This document shows, in pieces, positions 286-36,884 of a DNA stretch of 39,335 nt; position 1 is the stretch's first letter; the number at the start of each line of letters is the position of its first letter. Below the pieces are notes generated by a model that saw only the letters and a program-made list of their open reading frames with translations, was not told where the DNA came from and made no database searches. The DNA is from Ruminococcus sp. (lineage in GTDB: Bacteria; Bacillota; Clostridia; Oscillospirales; Ruminococcaceae): contig JAISHV010000067.1 in assembly GCA_031262495.1 (NCBI GenBank), forward strand, positions 1 through 39,335, read 5' to 3'. Made by a program: the position numbers and the translations under genes.

Positions 286-1293
286 ATGCTTAATTTCAAA
301 AACTCCCCCGTCACTGTCCAATCAATGCTGAATGTAATTGCCTCTGACGTTGACGGGAATATTAAACAGGCACTTGCTTTAGAGGCGGCGGGCTGTGATA
401 TACTGAGGGTAGCTGTACCTGCGCTTAAAGATACGAAGCTCATTCCCGCTTTAAAAAGTGTTTTAAAGATACCGCTCGTGGCTGATATTCATTTTTCGGC
501 GCATATCGCCGTTAAATGTGCTGAACTCGGTGTTGATAAAATCCGCATAAACCCCGGGAATATCGGTGACAAAACGGCTGTAAAACGCGTTGCGGATGCC
601 TGTAAAACCGCCGCAATCCCGATTCGTATCGGCGTAAACAGCGGTTCTGTGCCCAAAGACTCGCTTTTGAAATACGGCGGAGCTACTTCAGATGCTTTGG
701 TTGAAGCGGCACTTCTGAATGTCTCACAACTTGAAGAATGTAATTTCCGCGATATAGTTATTTCGGTAAAATCAAGCAATGTCAAAACAATGATTGAAGC
801 AAACCGAAAGCTCTTTAAAATGGCGGATTACCCCTTACATTTAGGCGTAACCGAAGCCGGTACATATAATATAGGCTTGATAAAATCCGCCTGCGGAATA
901 GGCAGTCTTTTAACAGACGGCATCGGTAACACAATCCGCGTATCGCTGACTGATGACCCCTTGCGCGAGGTTGAAGCGGGCATTGATATTTTAAAGGCGC
1001 TCGGTCAGCGCGGCGGGATAAATCTGATTTCATGTCCGACTTGCGGAAGAACTCAGATTGATATCGTAAAAATCGCCAATGAGATTGAAGCGGCGGTAAA
1101 GGATATCCCGAAAAACCTCACCGTAGCCGTTATGGGCTGTGTAGTAAACGGTCCGGGCGAAGCGTCAAACGCCGATTTAGGTATTGCCGGCGGCAAAGGT
1201 TTCGCTGTGCTTTTTAAAAAGGGGCAAGAGGTTCGGCGGATTGATGAGAAGGATATTGTTAATGAAATTTTGAATGAGATTTCTTTAATGTGA
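286..1293 (+). CDS. ispG: 4-hydroxy-3-methylbut-2-enyl diphosphate synthase (IspG/GcpE)
   Basis: Penultimate step of the MEP isoprenoid pathway: reductive dehydration of MEcPP to HMBPP by a cytosolic [4Fe-4S] enzyme. The TIM-barrel part shows VADIHF, DKIRINPGNIG and PIRIGVNSGS. The C-terminal iron-sulfur domain has SCPTCGRT (two Cys) and MGCVVNGPGEA (third Cys). At 335 aa it is slightly shorter than typical bacterial IspG because the N-terminus is trimmed; the usual QSMTNT stretch reads QSMLNV here. ATG 286 is chosen because the barrel begins at once, although no ribosome binding site is present. It lies 9 nt before a small gene and upstream of polC; the ispG-polC neighbourhood is common in Clostridia. 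Confidence 0.95.
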   Translation: MLNFKNSPVTVQSMLNVIASDVDGNIKQALALEAAGCDILRVAVPALKDTKLIPALKSVLKIPLVADIHFSAHIAVKCAELGVDKIRINPGNIGDKTAVKRVADACKTAAIPIRIGVNSGSVPKDSLLKYGGATSDALVEAALLNVSQLEECNFRDIVISVKSSNVKTMIEANRKLFKMADYPLHLGVTEAGTYNIGLIKSACGIGSLLTDGIGNTIRVSLTDDPLREVEAGIDILKALGQRGGINLISCPTCGRTQIDIVKIANEIEAAVKDIPKNLTVAVMGCVVNGPGEASNADLGIAGGKGFAVLFKKGQEVRRIDEKDIVNEILNEISLM

Positions 1294-1532: not shown

Positions 1533-4500
1533 CCATTTCCGAATTCCTAAATAAAAACCTCCCCGAAATACCGCCTGAAATCGGCGGCGGGGATATACTG
1601 AATATAAAACACACCGAAAATTTCCGCGATATTTATATTACCGCGGCTTTCGCTGTTTTACTTGATATTGATAAACTGACTGAATTCGAGAGTTCTGCGC
1701 GTGCTAACCTCGGTTTATCGGTTTTTCGCATTTTTCCGCGTTTTTCGCCCGACTTGTGGAGTGCGGACGCGGCGAAGATGAGTATATTTGAATTGCGCAA
1801 GACCTTACCCGCCGTTAACGGGCATTTCAATCCCGGCAATGCGGATATTGAATTCTTACCCGATGCGGTGCATTTTAAACTGAATAAGCCGGCTGAATTC
1901 CTCTTAGACTGTAATTTTGAAAGTGAATACTCAAAACTTGTCGGCAGTCTTTTCGGCGTAAAAATTACAACCAAACTCACGGGCAGCAAACCGACAGACA
2001 ACGTAAAAAGCGTTATCGAACCCGAAAGGCAACGCGTTTTAGCTACATTTTCAAAGCTCCCCGAAATAGCTCCGCCCAAAGAAATCCTACAGGTTAACGT
2101 AGAGGAACTCACCACCGTTGAGTTTAAGACGTTGCCCATTATGCGCGAGGGTGCGAAAATTTTAAAAGGAAAGAAAGTCACGGGCAACGATATCTTCAAA
2201 ATCGGCGACATTCAGGGCGAAGCCAAAAACATCATAATTTGGGGCGATGTCTTTAAATATGAGTCACGCGAGGTGCGCCCGCGAGATACCGCTAAAAAGC
2301 CTTTTAACGCTGTGAAACTCTGGGTTACTGACTATACAGGCTCAATTTTCGTGTCATTTATAGAGGATATCGGCGAAAGTTGCTGTAAGTCACTCAAAGA
2401 CGGCGGAACGGTGCTCTTAAAGGGCAAAACCGTATTCAACCAATACGAAGACGAATATGTGTTTACGCCGACTGATATTATGGAAGTTAAAAAGGAGAAA
2501 CTCCTTGATAACGCCCCCGAAAAACGCGTGGAGCTTCATCTTCACACGAATATGTCACAGCTTGATGCGGTGTCGTCACCGGCGGCTTTAGTGCGCCGTG
2601 CGGCTGACTGGGGACACCCTGCTGTCGCGATAACAGACCACGGTGTGGTTCAGGCTTTCCCGGAAGCGGCATCGGAGTGTAATAAAATCCGCAAAGCCGG
2701 GAATAAGGATTTTAAAATAATCTACGGCTGTGAGGCGTATTTTCTTAATGACGACGGCTGCAATTTCACAAACGACAAGGACTATGAAGAACTCAGCTCT
2801 TTCCATCAGATTCTGCTTGTGAAAAACGCTTTAGGACTTAAAAACTTATACCGTTTGGTTTCGGCGGGGAATCTTCGGTTCTATCACCGTCACCCGCGTA
2901 TCCCGAAATCGTTTTTAGATAAACACCGCGACGGGCTGATTATCGGTTCTGCCTGTGAAGCGGGAGAGCTTTTCCGGGCTGTGGTTGAGGGAAAACCGCA
3001 CTCGGAACTTGTTAAAATTGCAGAGTATTATGATTACCTTGAAATTCAGCCTATTATTAACAACAGCTTTATGAAGACGGCAGTCTTTACCGATAAGAAA
3101 TCAGCGAATTACGGCGAAAAAAGATACCCGGGCATTGAGACTGACGAAGATTTAAGAAACTTAAACCGCCGCATCTGCGCTTTGGGGGATGAACTGAATA
3201 TCCCCGTCTGTGCTACTTGCGATGTCCATTTTTTGGATAAAAAAGACCTCATCTTCCGCAATATTTTGACTTATGAGATGTACGGCAAATCCGAAACAGA
3301 ATTATATTTGCGCACAACCGATGAGATGTTACGCGAATTCTCTTATTTGGGCGATGAGAAGGCATTTGAGGTTGTTGTTAAGAACCCGAATTTCATAAAA
3401 GACCAAGTGAGCGGAGATGTTGTACCTATCCCGCCCGGGACTTTTACGCCGTCGCTGCCGGGGGCTGATGATGACTTGCGCCGTATTACCTCTGAAACAA
3501 TGCGGAGTATCTACGGCGAACATACCCCCGAACTCGTTTTGAAACGCTATGAGAGGGAAATATCTTCTATTATAAAACACGGATTCGGCGTTTTATATAT
3601 GATTGCGCAGAAATTAGTTAAAAACTCGAATGACAACGGTTTCCAAGTGGGTTCGCGTGGGTCTGTCGGGTCGTCTTTTATTGCTTTTTTAGCGGGGATT
3701 TCGGAAGTTAATCCGCTGCCGCCGCATTATGTATGCCCAAAGTGCCGCGTAACTGAATTTATCGCGCCTGAAATTATTAAAAAAGAAAACATCGGCTCGG
3801 GCTATGACTTACCGCCGAAGAATTGCCCTGAATGTAATACTCAGATGATACGCGAGGGGCACGATATCCCGTTTGAAACGTTCTTAGGTTTTGACGGCGA
3901 CAAAGCCCCCGATATCGACCTTAATTTCTCGGGGCGGTATCAGCCATACGCCCATAAATATACCGAAGAACTCTTCGGGAAAGAATATACCTTCAAAGCC
4001 GGGACTATCTCAACAGTTGCCGACAAAAAGGCTTTCGGCTACGTAGCGCATTACCTTGATGAAGAAAAAATCCACGAAACAAAAGCCGAAATAGACCGTC
4101 TTACCGCCGGTGTAACAGGCATTAAACTCACGACAGCCCAGCACCCGGGCGGTATGGTCGTAATCCCCGGGGGGTTTGAGGTATGCGACTTCACGCCTGT
4201 AGGACACCCCGCAGACGACGCCGGAAAAGGTATTATAACTACGCATTTTGATTTCAATGCGCTCCATGACACAATTTTAAAACTTGATGAGTTAGGGCAC
4301 GACGTTCCGACTTTATATGTAGTTTTAGAAGAGATGACAGGCATAAAAATCACAGACGTTTTCGCCGGTGACGAACAGGTTATCTCTCTCTATACTTCAC
4401 CGTCAGCCTTGGGCGTTACAACCGAACAAATCTGCTGTGAAACAGGGACACTCGCTATCCCCGAAATGGGAACGCCTTTCGTCCGCAATATGCTTTTGGA

Positions 4501-5350
4501 AGCCCGCCCGCAGAAATTTTCAGACCTCTTGCAAATTTCCGGACTGTCTCACGGCACAGACGTATGGGTCGGAAACGCTCAAGAACTGATAAAACAAAAT
4601 ATCTGCAATATCTCCGAGGTAATAGGTACGCGTGACTCGATTATGACGTATCTGATTTATCACGGACTGGACCCGAAACTTTCATTTAAGATAATGGAGA
4701 TTACGCGAAAGGGGAATGCCCGAAAACTCCTGACAGACGAAATGAAAGCGGATATGCTACAGCATGATGTACCGGATTGGTATATCGACAGCTGTCTGAA
4801 AATCAAGTATATGTTCCCTAAAGCTCATGCGGCGGCATATGTTATTTCGGCGATGAAACTGGGATTCTATAAAATAAATTATCCGATTGAGTTTTATGCG
4901 GCAATTTTCACAGTACGCGCCGGCGGTTTTGATGCAAACGCCGCTGTCACAAATGACCCTGCCAAAGTCAGAGCAAAACTTTTATCTCTGCGCGAAAAGT
5001 CCGATCGCTCGAAAAATGAAGACGATACCCTTGATGCTTTGTATATAACAAACGAATTCTTACAGCGCGGATTGAGATTTTTACCTGTTGATATAATGAA
5101 ATCGGACAAAAACACATTCAAAGTAGAAATGACACCCGACGGGAAACGCCTGCGGCTCCCGCTCACAGCGATAGACGGTGTTGCCGAAAAGGCGGCTGAG
5201 GGTATAGCGAGTGCAGTCAAAGCCGGTGGTTTTTACTGCATAGACGAATTAGCCGCACAGAGCGGCGCAAATAAAAAAGTTATCGAAGCATTGGAGATGA
5301 TGGGCGCATTCGGGGATTTGCCGAAGAGTAATCAAATAAGTCTATTTTAA
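1529..5350 (+). CDS. polC: DNA polymerase III alpha subunit, Gram-positive PolC type, without exonuclease domain
   Basis: Replicative DNA polymerase. In order: N-terminal domain (about 1-200), OB fold (about 215-325), first PHP part with HLHTNMS and AITDHGV (334-404), remainder of PHP with IGSACEAGE and CATCDVHFL, then the C-family polymerase core. The core shows GSRGSVGSS, a zinc finger C736/C739/C766/C769 and the palm aspartates in PDIDLNFSG (D795, D797). The C-terminus, QISLF, fits a beta-clamp-binding motif. Length is 1273 aa against about 1430-1440 for typical PolC. The shortfall of roughly 160-170 aa falls exactly where PolC carries its inserted DEDDh 3'-5' exonuclease: YGCEAYF (399-405) is followed after about 20 residues by SFHQILLVKN (about 424-433). 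No DxE or HxxxxxD exonuclease motif is seen anywhere. The frame is open throughout. Start ATG 1529 has a weak ribosome binding site. Confidence 0.95.
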   Translation: MTISEFLNKNLPEIPPEIGGGDILNIKHTENFRDIYITAAFAVLLDIDKLTEFESSARANLGLSVFRIFPRFSPDLWSADAAKMSIFELRKTLPAVNGHFNPGNADIEFLPDAVHFKLNKPAEFLLDCNFESEYSKLVGSLFGVKITTKLTGSKPTDNVKSVIEPERQRVLATFSKLPEIAPPKEILQVNVEELTTVEFKTLPIMREGAKILKGKKVTGNDIFKIGDIQGEAKNIIIWGDVFKYESREVRPRDTAKKPFNAVKLWVTDYTGSIFVSFIEDIGESCCKSLKDGGTVLLKGKTVFNQYEDEYVFTPTDIMEVKKEKLLDNAPEKRVELHLHTNMSQLDAVSSPAALVRRAADWGHPAVAITDHGVVQAFPEAASECNKIRKAGNKDFKIIYGCEAYFLNDDGCNFTNDKDYEELSSFHQILLVKNALGLKNLYRLVSAGNLRFYHRHPRIPKSFLDKHRDGLIIGSACEAGELFRAVVEGKPHSELVKIAEYYDYLEIQPIINNSFMKTAVFTDKKSANYGEKRYPGIETDEDLRNLNRRICALGDELNIPVCATCDVHFLDKKDLIFRNILTYEMYGKSETELYLRTTDEMLREFSYLGDEKAFEVVVKNPNFIKDQVSGDVVPIPPGTFTPSLPGADDDLRRITSETMRSIYGEHTPELVLKRYEREISSIIKHGFGVLYMIAQKLVKNSNDNGFQVGSRGSVGSSFIAFLAGISEVNPLPPHYVCPKCRVTEFIAPEIIKKENIGSGYDLPPKNCPECNTQMIREGHDIPFETFLGFDGDKAPDIDLNFSGRYQPYAHKYTEELFGKEYTFKAGTISTVADKKAFGYVAHYLDEEKIHETKAEIDRLTAGVTGIKLTTAQHPGGMVVIPGGFEVCDFTPVGHPADDAGKGIITTHFDFNALHDTILKLDELGHDVPTLYVVLEEMTGIKITDVFAGDEQVISLYTSPSALGVTTEQICCETGTLAIPEMGTPFVRNMLLEARPQKFSDLLQISGLSHGTDVWVGNAQELIKQNICNISEVIGTRDSIMTYLIYHGLDPKLSFKIMEITRKGNARKLLTDEMKADMLQHDVPDWYIDSCLKIKYMFPKAHAAAYVISAMKLGFYKINYPIEFYAAIFTVRAGGFDANAAVTNDPAKVRAKLLSLREKSDRSKNEDDTLDALYITNEFLQRGLRFLPVDIMKSDKNTFKVEMTPDGKRLRLPLTAIDGVAEKAAEGIASAVKAGGFYCIDELAAQSGANKKVIEALEMMGAFGDLPKSNQISLF

Positions 5351-5440: not shown

Positions 5441-6862
5441 TCATCCAATGAGTTCCCTATACAACCCCTGATAGAGTTCCGCTGATTTTTCCCATGAGTT
5501 GTCACATTGCATTGCGAAGGTTACTAAAGATTCCCAGCTTGGTTTATCTTCGTATACTGCGTATGCGCGTTTTGTTGCATCAAGCATATCGTGGGCGTTG
5601 TAGGTTTTGAATGTGAAGCCGTTGCCGTCGCCGCCTGAGGCATCTTTTATTGTATCGCGGAGTCCGCCTGTTTCGCGGACTATGGGGATTGTGCCGTAAC
5701 GTAATGATATCATCTGTGCTAAGCCGCACGGTTCACTCTGTGAGGGCATTAAAAACATATCGCAAGCCGCATAAATCCGCCGTGCTAACGCGGGGATAAA
5801 CCCTATTGTTACACTGACTTTATCGGGGTATTTCCACGCCATTTCGCGGAAGAAATCCTCATATAACTTGTCGCCGCTGCCTAAAATTGCGAATTTATAA
5901 CCCTCTCTCACGATATCCTCAAAGACGTGACGGATAAGGTCAATACCTTTGTGAGACACGAAACGTGTAATTATACCGATTATGGGTTCGCTGCCGTCTT
6001 GAAGCCCGAGTTCGGCTAACAAATCTTTCTTATCCTGCAATTTCCCGCTGCGGTCTCCTATAATGAAATTATGGGGGATGAGCGGGTCTGTTTCGGGGTC
6101 GAATGTATCGTTATCAATGCCGTTTAAGAAGCCCGTGAGCTTATACTGTTTGTCTTTGAGGGCACGGTCGAGTCCGTGACTGTACCACGGGTCTAAGATT
6201 TCCCACGCATATGACGGAGACACTGTCGTAATCTTATCGGAAGCTTCAAATGCGGCTTTCATCATATTCACACAGCCGTCATACATCAACAGGTCTTTGT
6301 GATATGAGGGTATGCCCATAACTTCGTTTAGGACTTCCGAGCCGTATTTGCCCTGATACTGTATATTATGGATAGTAAAAACAGTCTTTAAGTTCTCAAA
6401 ACCATGCTGATACTTATAAAATACTTGATAATAAACGGGTACGAGGGCGGTCTGCCAGTCGTTACAGTTTATAACCTGAGGTGTCCAGCCTATGAAACTG
6501 AGCATTTCGAGTACAGCCCTTGAGAAGAAACTGTAACGTTCGCAGTCGTCATAAAAGCCGTAAAGCCCGTCACGCCCGCCGAAATAATATTCATTGTCAA
6601 TGAGGTAATATGTCACATTACCGACTTTGCCCTCAAATACGCCGCAATATTGGTGCCGCCATGCTACGGCAACTTGGAAATTGCAGAGGAATTTGAGATT
6701 TTCTTTAAGTTCAGGTTTAATAGAAGCGTAAAGCGGCATTACCACGCGGCAATCCTGCCCTGCTTTGCACAAAGCCTGAGGGAGCGACCCTGCCACATCG
6801 GCAAGCCCGCCCGAAGCGGCATAAGGCACCGCTTCTGAAGCTGCATATAAAATTTTCATCAT
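5441..6862 (-). CDS. glgA: Glycogen synthase, ADP-glucose dependent (GlgA, GT5)
   Basis: Transfers glucose from ADP-glucose to the non-reducing end of a growing alpha-1,4-glucan. At 473 aa it has the normal GT5 length. It has the two-domain GT-B pattern: N-terminal MKILYAASEAVP, central INCNDWQTALVP and FTIHNIQYQG, and C-terminal GIITRFVSHKGIDL, MPSQSEPCGLAQ and RETGGLRDT. Residue 16, where the family's first K-x-G-G-L motif has its ADP-glucose-binding lysine, is alanine here (A-S-G-G-L). The start is the first of two adjacent ATGs, with AAGG 8 nt upstream. It is last in the glg gene order but separated from glgD by a 656-bp repeat island, so it may be transcribed separately; I see no strong promoter in the island. 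Confidence 0.95.
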   Translation of the reverse strand: MMKILYAASEAVPYAASGGLADVAGSLPQALCKAGQDCRVVMPLYASIKPELKENLKFLCNFQVAVAWRHQYCGVFEGKVGNVTYYLIDNEYYFGGRDGLYGFYDDCERYSFFSRAVLEMLSFIGWTPQVINCNDWQTALVPVYYQVFYKYQHGFENLKTVFTIHNIQYQGKYGSEVLNEVMGIPSYHKDLLMYDGCVNMMKAAFEASDKITTVSPSYAWEILDPWYSHGLDRALKDKQYKLTGFLNGIDNDTFDPETDPLIPHNFIIGDRSGKLQDKKDLLAELGLQDGSEPIIGIITRFVSHKGIDLIRHVFEDIVREGYKFAILGSGDKLYEDFFREMAWKYPDKVSVTIGFIPALARRIYAACDMFLMPSQSEPCGLAQMISLRYGTIPIVRETGGLRDTIKDASGGDGNGFTFKTYNAHDMLDATKRAYAVYEDKPSWESLVTFAMQCDNSWEKSAELYQGLYRELIG

Positions 6863-6906
6863 ATAAATAACCTTTTCTTACGGAATACGGAGGTTAGAGG
6901 TAAGGC

Positions 6907-7060
6907 TGTGAATGTCATTCCAGAAGACAGAATCGAGAATACAGAATACAGATGAATGTCACGTTTGAATGTCAGATGAATGTCTGTGAATGTCCGTTTG
7001 AATGTCGGATGAGTGTCCGGCTTCGATGTTGTATGAATGTCGTGAATGTCACGTTTGCAT
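6907..7060 (-). repeat. TGAATGTC direct-repeat array A1, with a short CAGA array
   Basis: About nine TGAATGTC-like units in one orientation, with start-to-start spacings of about 10-13 nt, interrupted at 6920-6952 by a CAGAAGACAGA-type array. It lies upstream of glgA and runs straight into GC-rich element R2. Spacing near one helical turn would put every unit on the same face of the DNA. No CRISPR-like spacers are present because the gaps are only 2-5 nt. Confidence 0.8.
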
Positions 7061-7062
7061 GA

Positions 7063-7227
7063 CTTTGTCAGGGGCAAGAGGGAGAGGGGGCGGCTATTCA
7101 GAGTGGCAGGCGTGACGCCGCCCCCTCTCCCTCTCACCCCCGACACCCCCCTCTCCCTCTCCCCCTGCGGGGTTGCCAAGCTGCTTAATTTAGTCTTACT
7201 CACCCGTTCAGTATATTCACTTCAAGC
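7063..7227 (+). repeat. GC-rich hairpin repeat, copy R2
   Basis: The arms at 7077-7094 and 7117-7134 (GCCGCCCCCTCTCCCTCT on the right) form a perfect 18-bp stem. The 22-nt loop contains GTGGCAGGCGTGAC. C/T-rich runs follow, then the GTCTTACTCACC...TATATTCACTTCAAGC tail. The related copies R3 and R4 are in the opposite orientation. Short frames here encode only low-complexity peptides and are not called as genes. Confidence 0.8.
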
Positions 7228-7317
7228 AACTGCTTTCGTGGAATCGCTGATTTTTAGTAATAAGCTAAACACTTAAGTGCAGAAAACACTTTTTCTGGAT
7301 GCATTTCAAGATTTAAG

Positions 7318-7445
7318 GTGTTTTGCTGCAAAGGGGGAGAGGGGTAGGGGGTGCAGGGGGTGTAGGGGAGAGGGGGCGGCATCTCGCCTGCCACGATATA
7401 TAGCCGCCCCCTCTCCCCTCATCCCCTGCAAGACATCGAAGCCGT
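7318..7445 (-). repeat. GC-rich hairpin repeat, copy R3 (inverted)
   Basis: The arms GGGGAGAGGGGGCGGC (7365-7380) and GCCGCCCCCTCTCCCC (7403-7418) are perfectly complementary, with a loop containing GCCTGCCAC, the reverse complement of the R2 loop motif. It faces R2, so the pair forms a large inverted repeat between glgD and glgA. Confidence 0.8.
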
Positions 7446-7512
7446 GACATTCAAACGTGACATTCATCCGACATTCAAACGCGACATTCACACACAGTCA
7501 AACAGACATTCA
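7446..7512 (+). repeat. GACATTC (inverted TGAATGTC) array A2
   Basis: Four to five GACATTC units spaced about 10-15 nt, ending just before the glgD stop codon. Opposite orientation to A1, so the whole island reads A1 > R2 > < R3 < A2. Confidence 0.75.
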
Positions 7513-7518
7513 CAGAAA

Positions 7519-8643
7519 TTATATTTCTGCACCCTTCCCTATGAACAAGGGGTATTTTTCACTGCCTGTCAGCAGATGCCCTGCTGTTATTTTAACATTT
7601 TTGTCTGTGATTACATTTTGGAGGGTTGAACCCTTTTCGATAATTGTGTCTTGCATAATTATACAGTTTTTAACTACTGCCCCGGCGGCAACTTTCGCGC
7701 CGCGGAATAAAATCGAATCAGTTACTTCCCCGTCTACTATACAGCCGTCGCCGATAAGACTGTTTTTGACTTTCGCGCCGATTGCGTATTTCGCAGGAGG
7801 ATTGTCGCGGATTTTGGTGTAAATCGGTCTGCCGTCCGGGAACAGGCGGTGACGGTTTTCGCTTTTGAGCAAATCAAAATTCGCCCGCATATAAGACTGC
7901 TTTGAACAAATCCTTGAAAAATATCCGTCAAAACAATACCCCATTATAAGGTAATCTGCACACCGCGCTTGCAGGACTGAACGCTCAAAGTCTTTGTCCG
8001 AACGGCTCATTGAGTCGTCAACTATCATCTTTAAGAAGTCTTTTTTCATCACATATGTGTTGAGTGAAACATTTGTTTCGCCTGTGATATGCGGCTTTAT
8101 GAGTACGTCAACAATACGCCCGTCTGCGTTTATACCGAAACTGTCAGTGCCCTGACACATATCTGCCGAAACATTTTCTTTGCCGTAAACACAGGTTATA
8201 TCAGCTTTTGACTGAATATGCTCTTCAATAATTTCAGCATAGTCCATATTCGCGATTACGTCACAATCGGAAAACAATACATATTCGGCTTCGGAGGTTT
8301 TAATGAAATCCCATACGCCGTATAACGCCTCAAGTCTGCCGCGATACATACCGCTTGAGCTGTGAGAGAACGGGGGCAACAGATGCAGTCCGCCGTTTTT
8401 GCGGGAAAGGTCCCATTCTCTGCCGTTTCCTAAGTGGTCAAGGAGCGACTGGTAATTCGATTTAGTGATAACGCCGACTTCTTCAATGCCGCTGTTAACC
8501 ATACTCGAGAGCGGGAAATCAATCAGCCTGTAGCGTGCGCCGAAGAGTACCGAACCCATTGTGCGGTTTTCGGTGAGGTCGCTGATATTTTCATCGTGGA
8601 GATTACTGAATATAAGTCCGAGGACTTTTTTATTGCTGTTCAT
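7519..8643 (-). CDS. glgD: Glucose-1-phosphate adenylyltransferase, GlgD (regulatory-type) subunit
   Basis: GlgD is the Firmicutes partner of GlgC in ADP-glucose pyrophosphorylase. At 374 aa it has an N-terminal nucleotidyltransferase-like domain and a C-terminal left-handed beta-helix (SLIGDGCIVDGEV, GAKVAAGAVVKNCIIM). The G-G-x-G-S-R-L nucleotide loop and [10 protein letters not shown] motif of its neighbour GlgC are replaced here by a degenerate N-terminus and FGARYRLIDFPLSS, as expected of the poorly catalytic GlgD subunit. ATG 8643 has GGTGAGA upstream. It lies 18 nt after glgC, so the two are co-expressed. The repeat island follows its stop codon. Confidence 0.93.
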   Translation of the reverse strand: MNSNKKVLGLIFSNLHDENISDLTENRTMGSVLFGARYRLIDFPLSSMVNSGIEEVGVITKSNYQSLLDHLGNGREWDLSRKNGGLHLLPPFSHSSSGMYRGRLEALYGVWDFIKTSEAEYVLFSDCDVIANMDYAEIIEEHIQSKADITCVYGKENVSADMCQGTDSFGINADGRIVDVLIKPHITGETNVSLNTYVMKKDFLKMIVDDSMSRSDKDFERSVLQARCADYLIMGYCFDGYFSRICSKQSYMRANFDLLKSENRHRLFPDGRPIYTKIRDNPPAKYAIGAKVKNSLIGDGCIVDGEVTDSILFRGAKVAAGAVVKNCIIMQDTIIEKGSTLQNVITDKNVKITAGHLLTGSEKYPLFIGKGAEI

Positions 8644-8661
8644 TGATATCTCACCTTTCCC

Positions 8662-9867
8662 TTATATAATACTTTCGGAAATAATATCTTTCGGGTTAAC
8701 CGTTTTCCCGGCGGCAACATTGATGTTATGCCCGACAACGGCGATTCCCCATTTGTCGCGGTCGGCAAAATCTGTAGGGTCAGAGCCGATTTTACTGCCC
8801 GCACCTATTACCGAATTTTCACCGACTATAGCGTATTCAACAGTTGCGCCGTCTTCAATAACAGTCCCGGGCATAATTATCGAGTAGTTTACTTTAGCAC
8901 CTTTCCCGATTTTAACGCCCTCAAATATTACGCTGAAATCAACCGCGCCTTCAATTTCACAGCCGTCTGTAACCATCGAATTCTCAATAACCGCATCTTT
9001 TCCGATGAATTGCGGCGGCATAATCGGATTGCGCGAGAAGATTTTCCAGTTCGGGTCATACATATCTATCGGGATTTTCGGGTTAAGAAGATCCATATTG
9101 GCATCCCAGAGTGAATCGAGAGTGCCTACGTCTTTCCAATATCCTTCAAACGGATAGGCAACCATTACTTGGTTGTCGGAGAGCATATTCGGGATAATAT
9201 TCTTCCCGAAGTCTTTGTCCTGTGTTTCGTCGGCCTCGTTGTCAATAAGGTATTTGCGGAGTTTATCCCATGTGAAGATATAGATACCCATTGAAGCGAG
9301 GGTTGAAGTCGGATTTTTCGGCTTTTCTTCAAATTTTGTCACAAAGCCTTTTTCATCTGCGGTCATAATTCCGAAACGCGAAGCTTCCTCAATAGACACA
9401 TCTAAAACGGCGATAGTACAATCGGCATTCTTCGCTTTGTGGAAGTCGAGCATTTTGTTATAATCCATCTTATAGATATGGTCGCCCGATAAAATTATAA
9501 CATATTTCGGGTTGTAGCGGTCGATAAACGTAATATTTTGGTAGATAGCGTTAGCCGTACCCTCATACCACGAAGCACCTTTAGAATTCTGATAAGGCGG
9601 CAGCGAATGAACACCGCCGTTCATTTTATCTAAGTCCCACGGCTGACCGTTTCCGAGGTAGTCATGTAAAACCATCGGCAGATACTGTGTCAAAACGCCG
9701 ACAGTATCAATCCCCGAATTAACGCAGTTCGAGAGCGGAAAGTCAATTATGCGGTATTTTCCGCCGAAAGGTACAGCGGGTTTAGCCATGTCCTTTGTCA
9801 GTGCGTACAGTCTGCTTCCCTGTCCTCCGGCAAGCAGCATAGCTACACATTCTTTTCGTGTATACAT
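8662..9867 (-). CDS. glgC: Glucose-1-phosphate adenylyltransferase, catalytic subunit (GlgC)
   Basis: Makes ADP-glucose and PPi from ATP and glucose-1-phosphate, the committed step of bacterial glycogen synthesis. Visible motifs are [14 protein letters not shown] (11-24), [37 protein letters not shown] and EGYWKDVGT, followed by a C-terminal hexapeptide beta-helix. Length 401 aa. ATG 9867 has an AGGAGG-type ribosome binding site. Second gene of the glgBCD unit, 37 nt after glgB. Probably acts as a GlgC/GlgD heterotetramer. Confidence 0.96.
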
Positions 9868-9904
9868 ATATTTTAATCCTCCTGTTGTAGGAATTTGGGG
9901 TAAT

Positions 9905-11983
9905 TTATGCTGATTTTTCGGTTTGGATATCGTTTTTTGATATTTTTGCCGTCTTCTTTGCTGATTTTTCTTGCTTTTCTTCTGTTTTCACTACTTCTGT
10001 GATATCTACATCTATTGCCGTTGTTTTTGGTTTTCTTGCCGCTTTCGCCTTGTTCGGTTCAAACTCAAAGAACATAGCCGACAGGGGCGGGATTGTCAGT
10101 TCTATTGAGTTTTCATAGCCGTGCATTGCGTAGTCTTCTGTTTTTACCTTTTTATTATCGAAAAAGTTTTGTCCGCCGAATTCGGGGCTTTCTGTCGAGA
10201 AAACCTGAACGTATTTGCCCTCACGGGGTACACCTATGCGGTAATGTTCACGCTTTACAGGTACAAAATTACAAACAGCGACAATTTCTTTTCCTGTATC
10301 ATCAATCCGCCTGAATGCAATAACACTCTGCATATAATCATCGTGACATATCCAGCCGAAGCCCTCCCATGAGTCGTCTCTCTCCCACAATGCCGGGGTT
10401 TTGAGGTAGAGTTTATTCAAAGCCTCGGTAAAATCCTGCATCTTCTTATTGTCGGGGGTTGAAAGCGCCTTCCAGTCGAGTTCGTGTTCTTCTGTCCACT
10501 CGGTCATCTGTCCGAACTCGTTGCCCATAAAGTTTAATTTCTTGCCCGGGTGCGCCATCATATACGTTAAGAATGTGCGGTAGGTTGCCTTTTTTTCATC
10601 CATGGAATTACCGCTCATCTTATTGAGGAGTGAGGCTTTCCCGTGGACAACTTCATCATGCGAAATCGGCAGAATATAATTTTCGGAAAAACTGTAGAAG
10701 AAACTGAATGTCAGTTTATTATGGTTATTAGCCCTATAGATAGGGTCCATGCGCATATATTCTAATATGTCATTCATCCAGCCCATATTCCACTTATAGT
10801 TAAACCCTAAGCCTCCGACGTCGGCGGGTTTTGTAACAAGCGGCCATGCGGTGGATTCTTCTGCAATCATAAGGACATCGGGGTTTCGGGCGAATGCGGC
10901 GGTGTTTAGGTTGCGCAAAAACTCAACCGCTTCATAACACTCATTTCCGCCGTCTTTATTCGGTCTCCATTCGCGTCTGTCATAGTCAAGATAGAGCATT
11001 GAAGCTACAGCGTCAACCCTTAGTCCGTCAACGTGGTATTTCTCTATCCAGTAGAGGGCATTTGAGATAAGGAACGACTGCACTTCGGGTCTCCCGAAAT
11101 CAAAGACGTGCGTACCCCACGAGAAGTGGTCCTTTTTTAAGGGGTCTGCGTACTCATAGAGGCAGCTGCCGTCGAATTCATACAGCCCTGCCGAGTCTTT
11201 CGGGAAATGCGCGGGTACCCAATCAAGGATAACGCCTATCCCTGCCGCATGAAATTTATCTATCATTGTCATGAAGTCAAACGGTGTGCCGTAGCGTGAA
11301 GTCGGGGCATAATAGCCTATTACCTGATAGCCCCACGAACCATCAAACGGATATTCCGCGACAGGCATCAGTTCAAGGTGAGTATACCCCATTTGCGTGA
11401 GATAGGGTATCATCTCCTCGGCGAATTTAATATAGCTGAATGGTTTCCCGTCAGAGTAGGTTCTCCACGAGCCGATATGCGCTTCGTAGATGTTCATCGG
11501 GGATTTATATAAATTAGTTTTAGATTTCTTTTCAAACCACTTCCTGTCTGTCCAGTTAAAGCCGTCTATGTCGAAGTATTTGCTTGCGGTAGCCGGGCGG
11601 GTTTCCATATGTGTGCCGTATGGGTCTGCTTTGTCAACTACAGAACGATGGCGCGTTTCTATCGAATATTTATATGCGAAAAATGTATCAACGTCCGTCA
11701 GGAAAATCTCCCATACAGATTCATCTGCAAGGCGTTTCATCGGGTTTTTGGTTCTGTCCCATTCATTGAAATCACCCACAATCGAAACAGATTTAGCATT
11801 CGGTGCCCATACCCGAAAGTATACACCCGTCACGCCGTCTTTAATACCGCCGTGTGCCCCGAAAAATTCATACGCCGCATGATTTGTTCCCTCATGAAAC
11901 ACATGAAGCGGGAATTCATAATCAGAGGGCAACACAGAGTCAGTTTTTACGGGCTTCATATTTTTATCTGTTTTGTCGTTCAT
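9905..11983 (-). CDS. glgB: 1,4-alpha-glucan branching enzyme (GlgB, GH13)
   Basis: Introduces alpha-1,6 branches into glycogen. It has an N-terminal CBM48 ([24 protein letters not shown]), a GH13 barrel with [16 protein letters not shown], the nucleophile in [11 protein letters not shown], the acid in [10 protein letters not shown] and [10 protein letters not shown], and a C-terminal beta domain. After the usual end (near [12 protein letters not shown]) a tail of about 50 residues rich in Lys, Glu and Thr extends the protein. The longer frame begins at a GTG (11992), but ATG 11983 is preferred because AAGGTGA lies 6 nt upstream of it. First gene of glgBCD, with its own promoter at 12084-12112. 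Confidence 0.95.
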
Positions 11984-12027
11984 AGCAATCACCTTGTTCT
12001 TTATATAGATGTCAGAGGTCAGAATTG

Positions 12028-12044
12028 CAGTTGCTTCGCAACTG
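12028..12044. repeat. Short hairpin in the glgB leader
   Basis: CAGTTGC-TTC-GCAACTG, a 7-bp stem with a 3-nt loop, next to a short CAGAGGTCAGA array (about 12011-12023). It lies in the predicted glgB 5' leader. No T tract, so not a terminator. It may be part of the repeat family or a leader structure. Confidence 0.45.
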
Positions 12045-12083
12045 TTCTGCTCTGTTTAAATTTGTATATTTTTTTACATTTTT

Positions 12084-12112
12084 ATTGTAACACAGAATCG
12101 AATAAATTACAA
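12084..12112 (-). promoter_or_regulatory. Predicted sigma-A promoter of glgBCD
   Basis: Read on the minus strand: TTGTAA (12107-12112), 17-bp spacer, TACAAT (12084-12089). The start would be near 12077, giving a leader of about 94 nt to the glgB ATG. The rest of the glgB-spoIIE gap is AT-rich; I see no terminator for spoIIE in it. Confidence 0.55.
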
Positions 12113-12221
12113 TAGGTTTTGTAAAAATTCAATAGTTTTGTATTAAAACTTTTTTTGTTTTTGTATACTATGCACAAATGTCATTAATAAGAGATTAAAA
12201 TTTATACGCTTTTTTGTAGAT

Positions 12222-14594
12222 TTATTTTAGAAATTTTATTGTCACCGCTGTTTTATCATCGGGAGTAATATCCATTTGAGTGTAAGTCTCTGCTGTTTCT
12301 AAAATTTTATCGGCTTTTTTTGACTGTGGGATTTGGTCATTTAATAGAATTTCTTTGATTAACGGATAGATGTTTTCAAGAATACCGTCAGAGAGCATAA
12401 TACAGGTATCATGGGGTTTTACCGAAAATTCAAAGATATCGGCTTCAAATTCAGTCAAAATCCCCAGCGGCAAAGTTTTTGAACGATATTCTGTTATTTC
12501 GCCGCCTGACATTAAAAATGTCACAGATGCGCCCATTTTATAAAGTTTTACAGTGCTTTCATAACGATTATAACACAGCAAGTCCACAGTCGAAAGCATT
12601 TCGCTGTCTGATTTTGCGCGAAGGAGGATATTCGTCAGTTTGAGGGCGGCTAAAGGGTCTGCTCCGCCTTTTATGAGGCGTGAGAGGATTGAAGCGGTCA
12701 TTGCCGATTCAACTCTTGCGCGCGCGCCGTGTCCCATTCCGTCTGAAATTATTACATAGTCCGTTCCGTATCCATCGGAGAATTCGCGGACGGTATCGCC
12801 GTTTACTGAGCCGCGTTTTGCGGGTATTTGAGCAACGCTGATTTCGGTAAAAAACGGAGGTTTCGGGGCGTAAATATAGCGGTGATTTTTTCCTGTTGTG
12901 TCATGCATACTTAAACGTAATTTCATTCCGGCAATATTTGAGATTTTTTCGGTGAATTTTTCAGCAGTTTTTTTGTCATTTAAAACAGTAATTTCACCGT
13001 CTGAAAAAATTTCGGCGTAAATCAAACCGTTTGAAAAACCGGCATTGAGCGAAAATCTTGCGCCCGGGTTTTGCTCTTTAAGGGTTGATGAAATTTTAGC
13101 CGTCAGCGTTTTATCGGATAAGAATTTCGGCGTAACAGCAGACAGGAGTTCTTCATATGAATGAAGCGAAGCACTGACTGCCGAGCGGATATTGCGGGCG
13201 AATTCGGCGTTGTTTTGTTTGGCGCGGCGATAGGTTTCGCGGCGGTTTATTTCGTTTGTTAAAGCGGGGCGGCGGGTACAGTATTCTGTGGGACTGCCGC
13301 TGATGTCACTTTCGGATAAAAAGCCTTTGAGGGTGAGATTGCGGGTAAAAGTCATCATAGCCGACTGAGGGAAGCCTGTCTTAAAATTCGGGCAAAAAAC
13401 GGAATCGGAACAGGCGGCGCAGATTTTGCGGCGGGAACTCTCAATTTCTTCCGTTAAAACCGCATTGATATCTATTCTGTTATTTTTAGATATTTTCTGC
13501 CGATTATTCAATATTTCACCCGCTTTGTCGAAAGCTTGGGATGTTTCATTAATTAAAGCGGCGAAATTTTCAGTTTTTTTAGAAAAATATTCCTCGGTAA
13601 AATTTACTTCTGTTATTTTCTTTAAATAATCTGTGAGCCTGCTCGGGATTAAACAATATATTAATGCACCGCAGAAAGCGTCCGCGCATAGGTTTATTGC
13701 GCCTGACGGAACGCCGCTTAAAATTTCACCCGATAAAAGTGCAATCAAAAACAGGGCGGCGATACTGAGTTTCCCCGAACCGAAAAGTACGGCTGACAGT
13801 GTCCCGACTAAGAGCAGAAGTGAACCTCTTGCTAAGTCGTGAGAACACAGAAGCATCCCGAAAAGTGATAGGGCATTTATTATCAGAGCCTTTTCGCCGA
13901 ACTGACGGCAGGCAATGAGACAAGCGGCTACAGACAGGCAGCGTCCGAGGTTTATTACCGAAATGCCGATGCCTGATACGGCGCAGACGGTTGTGACAAA
14001 GACGGCGGACAGAATGAGGTATTCGGTTTTGGGGTTGATTGAAATTACGGGAGATTTTTTATTTACAATACGAAAACTCTCGAAAAAACATTGCGCTAAA
14101 GTCGCGCAAACAAGTCCGCGAAACACGACAGCAATGGAAAGCGGCAGAGAAACAGCCGAAACGGCGGCGATAGAAAATCCGCTGATTATGTAACTCACTC
14201 CGCCGATAAGGAATGAGAATTGCCCGGGGATATCGCGCCGAAAGAGTGACGAAGCGATAATTTTTATGCCGCAGAGCATCACAAGAGCTAAAATATCGGG
14301 TGCGCGGGCGGTAACAAGCCCCGTAAAGAGAAGCCCGATAACATCGCCCGCCATAGCCGCCGCCGCATAAACAGGCGGCAAAGCCGAAGCAAAAGCAACC
14401 CCGACAGGCAAAGCCGCCCCCGAAATCTCAGCGCCCGACACAAACGCACCGAATAGGGCAGAGAAGACGACTTTTAATAAAATAGCATTACCGGCGGATT
14501 CAGAGGTTTGAAAATTTATATTTTCTGAAATATCTCGAACAATTCCGGCGGATATTTGTTCAACTTTCTCTTTAACAGGCGCACCATTAGCCAT
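12222..14594 (-). CDS. spoIIE: Stage II sporulation protein E (SpoIIE), PP2C phosphatase
   Basis: Membrane serine phosphatase that dephosphorylates SpoIIAA to activate sigma-F in the forespore and also takes part in polar septation. The N-terminal half (about 30-330) is a run of hydrophobic segments, matching the multi-TM region. A central soluble region contains a CAACSDSVFC cysteine cluster. The C-terminal PP2C domain shows IISDGMGHGARARVES, LPLGIL and MLSDGILEN, keeping the metal-binding Asp residues. Length is 790 aa (B. subtilis about 827). ATG 14594 has TAGGAG 6 nt upstream. It has its own unusual promoter overlapping the end of fabV. Its presence marks the organism as a spore-former. 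Confidence 0.95.
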   Translation of the reverse strand: MANGAPVKEKVEQISAGIVRDISENINFQTSESAGNAILLKVVFSALFGAFVSGAEISGAALPVGVAFASALPPVYAAAAMAGDVIGLLFTGLVTARAPDILALVMLCGIKIIASSLFRRDIPGQFSFLIGGVSYIISGFSIAAVSAVSLPLSIAVVFRGLVCATLAQCFFESFRIVNKKSPVISINPKTEYLILSAVFVTTVCAVSGIGISVINLGRCLSVAACLIACRQFGEKALIINALSLFGMLLCSHDLARGSLLLLVGTLSAVLFGSGKLSIAALFLIALLSGEILSGVPSGAINLCADAFCGALIYCLIPSRLTDYLKKITEVNFTEEYFSKKTENFAALINETSQAFDKAGEILNNRQKISKNNRIDINAVLTEEIESSRRKICAACSDSVFCPNFKTGFPQSAMMTFTRNLTLKGFLSESDISGSPTEYCTRRPALTNEINRRETYRRAKQNNAEFARNIRSAVSASLHSYEELLSAVTPKFLSDKTLTAKISSTLKEQNPGARFSLNAGFSNGLIYAEIFSDGEITVLNDKKTAEKFTEKISNIAGMKLRLSMHDTTGKNHRYIYAPKPPFFTEISVAQIPAKRGSVNGDTVREFSDGYGTDYVIISDGMGHGARARVESAMTASILSRLIKGGADPLAALKLTNILLRAKSDSEMLSTVDLLCYNRYESTVKLYKMGASVTFLMSGGEITEYRSKTLPLGILTEFEADIFEFSVKPHDTCIMLSDGILENIYPLIKEILLNDQIPQSKKADKILETAETYTQMDITPDDKTAVTIKFLK

Positions 14595-35211: not shown

Positions 35212-35240
35212 TTGATTTTGTCAGTAATATATTGTATAAT
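35212..35240 (+). promoter_or_regulatory. Predicted promoter of malQ
   Basis: TTGATT (35212-35217), 17 bp, TATAAT (35235-35240), then AAAGGAG ahead of ATG 35271. Confidence 0.65.
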
Positions 35241-35270
35241 GGTCTTAGTATAACAAAAGGAGAAAGATTT

Positions 35271-36884
35271 ATGCGCGCCTCGGGAATTTTAATGCACATT
35301 ACCTCGCTTTATGACGAATTCGGCTGCGGTACCCTCGGCAAACCCGCTTTTGATTTTGTTGACTTCTTAGCGAAATCAAAAACCGGTTACTGGCAAATGC
35401 TCCCTATCGGTCCTACAGGATATGGTGATTCACCCTATCAGTCATATTCGGCGTTCGCCGGAAACGTAAATCTTATTGATTTACATGATTTAATTAAAAA
35501 AGGTTTAATCGAACCCGACGAACCGTTGCTTCAAACATTAAAAGGCAATTTTAACAATTACGAAGAATACGGCAAAATTAAGACTAACGTTCTGCGCAAA
35601 GCTTATGATAAGTACAAAAAATCCGATAATCAGACGGATATCTTCGGGGTATCTTTATTGCATTTTTTTGCCTATAACCGTGATTGGCTTGAAGACTATG
35701 CCTTGTTTATGACCCTCAAAGCCGAAACAGACGGTACACCGTGGCCAGCGTGGGATAAAAAATACCGCTTGCGCGACGAAACAGCTTTGCTTGATTTTAC
35801 ACGTGAAAACATTGATACTATTCATTATTATTATTTTGAACAGATGGTTTTCGCGCTGCAATTTGACACGCTCAAACAATATGCAGGACAAAACGGCGTA
35901 AAACTTATCGGCGATATGCCTATCTATGTTTCGGCGGATTCGGCGGATATCTGGGGCGCGCCTGAGAATTTCAGGCTTGATGCAGGGCTTCGCCCGACTT
36001 ACGTCGCCGGTTGTCCCCCCGACGATTTCGCGCCGACCGGTCAGCTCTGGGGCAATCCCCTCTATAACTGGGAACTCATGAAACAAAACGGCTATAAATG
36101 GTGGATTCGCCGAATGGAATACTCCGCACGGTTTTTTGATGTCTTGCGGATTGACCATTTCAGAGGTTTTGAGAGTTTTTATGCAATCCCTGCCGCTGAT
36201 ACTACCGCTGAAAACGGCACATGGGAAAAAGGTCCCGGGGCGGAGATGTTTAAGTTTATATCCGCTCAAATGAAGAAACAGAGCAAACCTTGCCCCGAAC
36301 TTATCGCTGAAAACTTAGGATTTTTGACACCCGAAGTACATGAAATGCTTGACGAACTGGGTTACCCGGGTATGAATGTAATGGAATTCGCTTTCGGCGG
36401 CGACGACAGCGGATATCTCCCGCACAACTTTATTAAGAATTCCGTCTCCTATATCGGCACTCACGACAACGACACTGCACTCGGCTGGTTTTTATCAAGT
36501 GATACTGCAACGCAAAAGCGTGTGAAACGCTATACACACGCAAAGGGCAAATCCCCTAAAAAGGCAGTAAAAGCCTTAATCCGCACCCTCTTTATGTCAG
36601 CCTCGGATTTAGTAGTTGTCGCGGCGCAGGACTATTTGAAATTAGGTTCATCAGCCCGTATGAACACCCCGTCAACAGTAGGCACAAATTGGCACTGGCA
36701 AGCTGAGGCAGACGTCTTCACCGACAAGCTCTCGCGGCGGATAGCGAAACTCAATACCACCTATTTCAGAACACCTGTTATTTCAACAGAACCTGTAGCA
36801 GTTGAAGAAAAGAAAGAGACCGTTGCAGAAATCCCGGCAGAGAAAAAGGCTAAGAAAGTTATGCCGCTGAAATTGAAGAAATAA
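35271..36884 (+). CDS. malQ: 4-alpha-glucanotransferase (MalQ, GH77)
   Basis: Transfers alpha-1,4-glucan segments between oligosaccharides, in maltodextrin and glycogen metabolism. GH77 marks: N-terminal RASGILMHITSL and TGYGDSPYQSYSAFAGN, GDMPIYVS, nucleophile Asp in VLRIDHFRGFE, acid Glu in LIAENLGFL, third Asp in IGTHDNDTALG, and NTPSTVGTNWHWQ near the end. After the catalytic domain there is a tail of about 35 residues rich in Lys and Glu. ATG 35271 (537 aa) follows AAAGGAG; the frame is open back to 35232 but lacks a ribosome site there. Confidence 0.95.
   Translation: MRASGILMHITSLYDEFGCGTLGKPAFDFVDFLAKSKTGYWQMLPIGPTGYGDSPYQSYSAFAGNVNLIDLHDLIKKGLIEPDEPLLQTLKGNFNNYEEYGKIKTNVLRKAYDKYKKSDNQTDIFGVSLLHFFAYNRDWLEDYALFMTLKAETDGTPWPAWDKKYRLRDETALLDFTRENIDTIHYYYFEQMVFALQFDTLKQYAGQNGVKLIGDMPIYVSADSADIWGAPENFRLDAGLRPTYVAGCPPDDFAPTGQLWGNPLYNWELMKQNGYKWWIRRMEYSARFFDVLRIDHFRGFESFYAIPAADTTAENGTWEKGPGAEMFKFISAQMKKQSKPCPELIAENLGFLTPEVHEMLDELGYPGMNVMEFAFGGDDSGYLPHNFIKNSVSYIGTHDNDTALGWFLSSDTATQKRVKRYTHAKGKSPKKAVKALIRTLFMSASDLVVVAAQDYLKLGSSARMNTPSTVGTNWHWQAEADVFTDKLSRRIAKLNTTYFRTPVISTEPVAVEEKKETVAEIPAEKKAKKVMPLKLKK

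Follow-up and report, generated by a model that had tools for sequence, protein, structure and literature searches.

An exonuclease-less PolC and a PHP-decayed DnaE partner in a Ruminococcus lineage, with the PolC PHP centre as the likely Pol III proofreader

The window analysed here is the whole 39,335-nucleotide stretch of DNA presented above, and belongs to a MAG-like genome of 2.08 Mb in 104 contigs (G000) that is 93% complete. Its polC gene lies immediately downstream of ispG (Table 1), and the product is assigned as PolC-type on the basis of its scores against TIGR01405 (1161 bits; cut-off 1043) and PRK00448 (1284 bits; cut-off 873), with named relatives in Oscillospiraceae, Ruminococcus-type and Acutalibacter/Neglectibacter-type MAGs, which makes a place in Oscillospirales, within or close to Ruminococcaceae, likely for the genome. 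Residues 1-224, where PolC-type polymerases have a pair of KH-like domains resembling tau domain V, align with relatives, and the order of what follows is that of PolC-type polymerases, with an OB domain N-terminal to the PHP domain and then the polymerase core and HhH domains. In Pfam, a single uninterrupted PHP match (residues 335-501) is followed by polymerase, finger and HhH domains. No other gene linked to replication was found in the window. Positions 5441-14594 hold ordinary glycogen genes (glgA, two of glgC/glgD type and glgB), with a 4-alpha-glucanotransferase gene further on (35232-36884) and spoIIE nearby.

Table 1. Features of polC and its upstream neighbour, all on the forward strand (window positions; residue numbers refer to PolC)
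Feature	Residues	Window positions	Strand	Basis or remark
ispG (GcpE)		286..1293	+	immediate upstream neighbour of polC
polC, DNA polymerase III PolC-type, exonuclease-less	1273 aa	1529..5350	+	TIGR01405 and PRK00448 equivalogs, both over cut-off
OB-fold domain, N-terminal to PHP	about 225-334	2201..2530	+	collinear with 3F2B; strands E8-E96 of the model
PHP domain, uninterrupted		2531..3229	+	Pfam; all nine metal ligands present
PHP metal ligands, first five	H337, H339, D346, H371, E402	2537, 2543, 2564, 2639, 2732	+	present
PHP metal ligands, last four	H426, C476, D565, H567	2804, 2954, 3221, 3227	+	present
Excision junction, YGCEAYF	399-405	2723-2743	+	
Excision junction, linker	406-422	2744-2794	+	
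Excision junction, SSFHQILLVKN	423 onward	2795-2827	+	
Zinc-finger cysteines CPKC, CPEC	736-739, 766-769	3734..3835	+	columns invariant in alignment A1
Palm catalytic motif PDIDLNF (D795, D797)	794-800	3908..3928	+	present
C-terminal beta-clamp motif QISLF	1269-1273	5333..5347	+	present

The hallmark of PolC, a DEDDh exonuclease inserted in the PHP domain, is found neither by Pfam nor by alignment. A first-pass annotation, made from the sequence alone, had proposed exactly this absence, and Pfam detects no RNase_T match anywhere in the protein, even at E<=1, so that relocation of the exonuclease to another part of the polypeptide is rejected as well. The stretch between YGCEAYF and SSFHQILLVKN, put at about 20 residues in that annotation, contains a linker of 17 residues (LNDDGCNFTNDKDYEEL). 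At the same position the closest relatives with the exonuclease (exo-plus), G006 and G025, have 207-208 residues that include a canonical DEDDh domain, and exo-plus relatives generally have 203-212 residues with a standard one. The shortfall in total length is of about the size of the insert, as had also been noted, with 1273 aa here against about 1445-1457 aa in G006 and G025. The PHP ligands, zinc-finger cysteines, palm aspartates and clamp motif, described as intact, are indeed all present.

Four other separately assembled genomes of the genus carry an equivalent open, exonuclease-less (exo-less) PolC frame with 60-63% identity to the G000 protein; complete or almost complete frames encode 1263-1300 aa. 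Across the genus genomes the linkers differ in sequence and range from 12 to 20 residues. The PolC of this genus has undergone a clean, in-frame loss of its exonuclease insert, and the earlier reading of an open frame with a clean domain loss is borne out by the shared architecture. The fragmented, MAG-like source assembly could have suggested that the gap is a collapse or a frameshift artefact, but this can be dismissed, as the exo-less form is present in five of five genus genomes with dissimilar linkers, the frame is open with a linker that reads as coding, and the form recurs in many other lineages.

Exo-less PolC is in fact an already known and recurrent architecture, of which the G000 protein is a further example, and the domain loss alone is therefore less surprising than it might appear. 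Timinskas 2013 reported the form for 6% of PolC proteins, all but one from Clostridia and Negativicutes, and for 16% of systems that combine PolC with DnaE1 (PMC3919608). The present protein conforms to that variant, with no exonuclease between the PHP strands and relatives in Clostridia of Oscillospirales type. In a class-wide sample of 138 genomes that match PolC strongly, 20 carry an exo-less protein as judged from match spans and frame lengths, and these are spread over eight family-level groups. In a tree of 78 PolC cores from which the insert region was excluded, and which was repeated with a mixture model, the genus forms a clade (support 100) adjoining exo-plus G006 and G025 (98) inside a largely exo-plus family, which indicates loss rather than ancestral absence. 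The exonuclease state requires about 11 changes on this order-level tree, and well-supported branches make at least seven of them necessary.

What is unusual in G000 is not the exo-less PolC but the rest of the replisome, in which no DEDD exonuclease was detected and the PHP domain of the DnaE partner has decayed. A single DnaE-type match exceeds the family cut-off (G000:C52:2795-5530, minus strand), a protein of 911 aa that lacks the OB domain and shows the PHP ligand pattern HHTREGGDC in place of HHDHEHCDH, a loss of five of nine ligands. The proteins of the genus genomes G002, G003 and G004 (912-918 aa) are similarly degraded, whereas HHDHEHCDH is found in DnaE almost everywhere outside the genus among the genomes read. 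The G000 protein scores best as DnaE1, with 1041 bits against PRK06826 (clostridial DnaE1) and 823 bits against PRK06920 (Bacillus-type DnaE), and it does not belong to DnaE3 by this comparison. As dnaE in G002-G004 also follows whiA, as it does in exo-plus relatives, the genus protein looks like a DnaE1 that decayed in place.

In this respect the genus departs from the systems described by Timinskas. Those share with G000 the NTD-OB-PHP-Pol3-HhH order, the empty PHP loop, the class and a conserved PHP metal site in PolC, but pair the exo-less PolC with a DnaE1 of typical architecture and conserved PHP domain (PMC3919608); in addition, no DEDD nuclease was detected in G000. Six other families of the class contribute 18 exo-less genomes, and in all of these whose N-terminal PHP part could be read the DnaE1 PHP site is intact; among those read in the order it is intact in every other exo-less genome except G060. 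There, in a fragmented assembly, an exo-less PolC accompanies a short DnaE reading frame with a dead PHP site. A common origin of this double loss with that of the genus is rejected by an AU test on PolC (p 8e-5); the DnaE tree does group the two, on long branches, and is not trusted for shared origin. Since the G060 PolC does not group with that of the genus, the combination seems, on these trees, to have arisen twice independently. A general link between exonuclease loss in PolC and PHP decay in DnaE is not claimed, as only two lineages combine them and nearly all others keep the DnaE PHP site.

The first-pass annotation had reasoned that such a replicase would need a separate proofreader or would have to rely on PHP activity, and it is the second half of this alternative that gains support, from the complete ligand set in PolC. 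For the first half, the G000 gene inventory, which rests on family profile searches, contains no detectable RNase_T (PF00929), DEDDy DNA_pol_A_exo1 (PF01612) or RNase_H_2 (PF13482) protein, and the decayed DnaE PHP domain offers no substitute. Of the 87 good genomes sampled, 83 have PF00929. Among the four that do not, G000 alone has PolC, and the other three are without PolC as well. None of the five genus genomes (93, 78, 66, 81 and 80% complete) has a PF00929 match.

A separate proofreader could nevertheless have been missed, either as a DnaQ-type gene in the unassembled 7% of the genome or as a nuclease of an unrecognised family. The completeness of G000 leaves room for a divergent or unassembled exonuclease, and a 2026 survey suggests that noncanonical proofreaders may serve some bacteria (PMC12926913). 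Moreover, some other exo-less lineages encode a free DEDDh exonuclease with sequence similarity to that of PolC (L141-L144, in G073, G090, G116 and G098), which in G073 and G116 lies beside the same neighbour gene and is a candidate for a trans-acting replacement proofreader. We nonetheless regard a missed enzyme as distinctly improbable in G000, because an RNase_T gene would be missed by chance in all five independent genus assemblies with a probability of about 2e-4 given their completeness, because the same search recovers the domain from 100 of 120 relatives and from 10 of 14 control genomes, and because no PolX-sized PHP protein was found in G000, where the four other PHP reading frames span 253-290 aa. 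Excision of the exonuclease and its re-encoding as a free gene, as is seen in family f2 (G073, G116, G098) and in G090, is not seen in the genus.

Attention thus falls on the PHP site of PolC itself. Clostridia normally have three proofreaders. Judged by sequence, G000 has lost two of these, and the PolC PHP centre is the only recognisable one left. Its ligands read HHDHEHCDH, nine of nine, as in the proofreader of the Mycobacterium tuberculosis DnaE1 type, where the proofreading site consists of nine PHP residues that coordinate three zinc ions (PMC5636811). All nine are invariant in 19 exo-less PolCs although only 46 of 268 PHP columns are invariant, a coincidence with a probability of 6e-8 for nine random columns. 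The ligands are equally intact in exo-plus PolCs of the order, so that conservation alone is no proof that the PHP site took over proofreading: it points to a site that is needed rather than to one that newly assumed this role. A stronger conservation of PHP in exo-less than in exo-plus PolC, which would have been a sign of compensation, is not seen.

The structural setting is compatible with a PHP exonuclease. The exonuclease insert of PolC sits in a loop adjoining the PHP site, and this loop is 18 residues long in the Taq enzyme (PMC5636811), comparable in size to the 17 residues in G000. An AlphaFold model of PolC residues 225-1273 has a pLDDT of 89.5, with a lower value of about 73 in the loop, and its best PDB matches are the Geobacillus kaustophilus PolC structures 3F2C and 3F2B (TM 0.89/0.94). 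These share with the model the exonuclease-free PHP loop as well as the fold, but there the deletion was engineered for crystallisation (PMC12592400), and the G. kaustophilus PolC has one PHP ligand mutated and shows no PHP exonuclease activity (PMC5636811). In G000 the loss is natural and all nine ligands are retained.

It can be hypothesized from these observations that an in-frame deletion on the genus stem removed the DEDDh insert from PolC, that the PHP insertion loop thereby returned to a short form of 17 aa in a polymerase that still functions, and that the nine-ligand centre would now proofread for PolC, in the manner of the PHP exonuclease of M. tuberculosis DnaE1. Its DnaE partner has degenerated into a short polymerase whose PHP site is dead, and the PolC centre may proofread for it in trans. 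We consider it probable that the PolC PHP centre, after loss of the exonuclease, is the proofreader of Pol III, for PolC and possibly for DnaE, and its role as the sole Pol III proofreader is the most likely explanation of the combined data. By the same reasoning we infer that it would be a working 3'-5' exonuclease that serves both polymerases. The more specific proposal, that in a two-polymerase replisome one PHP centre, that of PolC, corrects mistakes made by PolC as well as those of a DnaE1 whose own PHP site is dead, is somewhat more tentative, at nearly even odds; this state appears to have arisen independently in another genus (G060).

The alternative that deserves most weight is that the lineage does not proofread during replication. 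Its PHP domain would then serve structure only, as it does in E. coli Pol III alpha, with fidelity depending on base selection and mismatch repair. MutS1 is indeed retained in G000 (C75, 879 aa), PHP domains can have structural roles (PMC3666897), and the conservation of the PolC site could instead reflect structure or another hydrolysis. The evolutionary rates can be read in the same direction: relative to exo-plus G006 and G025, the distance ratios of the genus are 1.20-1.46 for PolC and 1.44-1.74 for DnaE against 0.96-1.14 for RpoB, and the faster replicases could reflect relaxed constraint. However, RpoB is not accelerated, and its normal rate gives no hint of a mutator phenotype across the genome; the ratios, which bear weakly on mutation rate as such, are better explained by a remodelled replicase than by a mutator lineage. 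Moreover, the nine ligands are invariant across independent exo-less PolC lineages, while the genus DnaE, having lost five of nine, shows that this lineage tolerates such loss where the ligands are not needed. An absence of proofreading is on balance unlikely. The idea that the exonuclease was lost in the course of a fast clock throughout the genome is likewise unsupported for the genus; in G090 and G114 RpoB is also fast, so that no general rule on exonuclease loss and clock emerges.

A proofreading PHP centre in PolC would have partial counterparts in known systems. M. tuberculosis DnaE1 shares the nine-ligand centre and a short loop in place of a DEDD insert (PMC5636811), but the G000 protein is a PolC in a two-polymerase replisome, and its PHP exonuclease is putative. 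G000 also differs in having MutS, whereas mycobacteria are without mismatch repair. Systems of the B. subtilis type likewise combine two Pol III alpha subunits, PolC and a DnaE3 whose C-terminus is reduced and whose PHP site is dead, and in both cases the PHP-dead DnaE implies that proofreading must sit in PolC. There, however, PolC proofreads by DEDDh and its PHP site is often inactive, while the G000 PolC has PHP only, and the partner is DnaE3 rather than the DnaE1 indicated here.

If this reading is correct, the lineage has been stripped from the three candidate proofreaders typical of Clostridia to one. PHP domains are very widespread in C-family polymerases, and in most Firmicutes any proofreading by the PHP site of PolC is masked by DEDDh. 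Lineages without DEDDh make this activity directly testable in one purified protein, and the genus is the best such case, because its DnaE PHP site is also lost and no DEDD nuclease was detected. The variant is also of practical relevance, as a 2025 prediction of the spectrum of the PolC inhibitor ibezapolstat counted only sequences with the RNase_T insert as PolC (PMC11963600); such a criterion would miss the exo-less proteins, which make up about one in seven PolCs in our class-wide sample.

Several further variations in Pol III composition were observed. PolC is lost altogether within Clostridia in genomes of the type of G010, G033, G072, G081 and G105, which are highly complete relatives, and a PolC match is also lacking in highly complete genomes of family f30 (G123, G156, G204, G225). 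Several PolC-less genomes are small (0.7-1.1 Mb), and those at order level have a full-length DnaE1 whose PHP site is either intact or differs at one residue. G010, G072 and G081 show neither an RNase_T nor a PolC match. PolC-less G105 encodes, beside a normal DnaE1, an extra divergent DnaE-like protein of 1053 aa with PHP ligands LHDHEHCDH (L118, G105:C27:76637-79252). G103 has, besides a normal exo-plus PolC, a second PolC-like copy of 829 aa that is exo-less and has degraded PHP ligands, HHDNE-CNY (L125, G103:C9:4295-6655). In G035 the DnaE1 match is split cleanly at profile positions 554/555 within one open frame of 2109 aa (G035:C76:54191-60055), which suggests an intein in dnaE.
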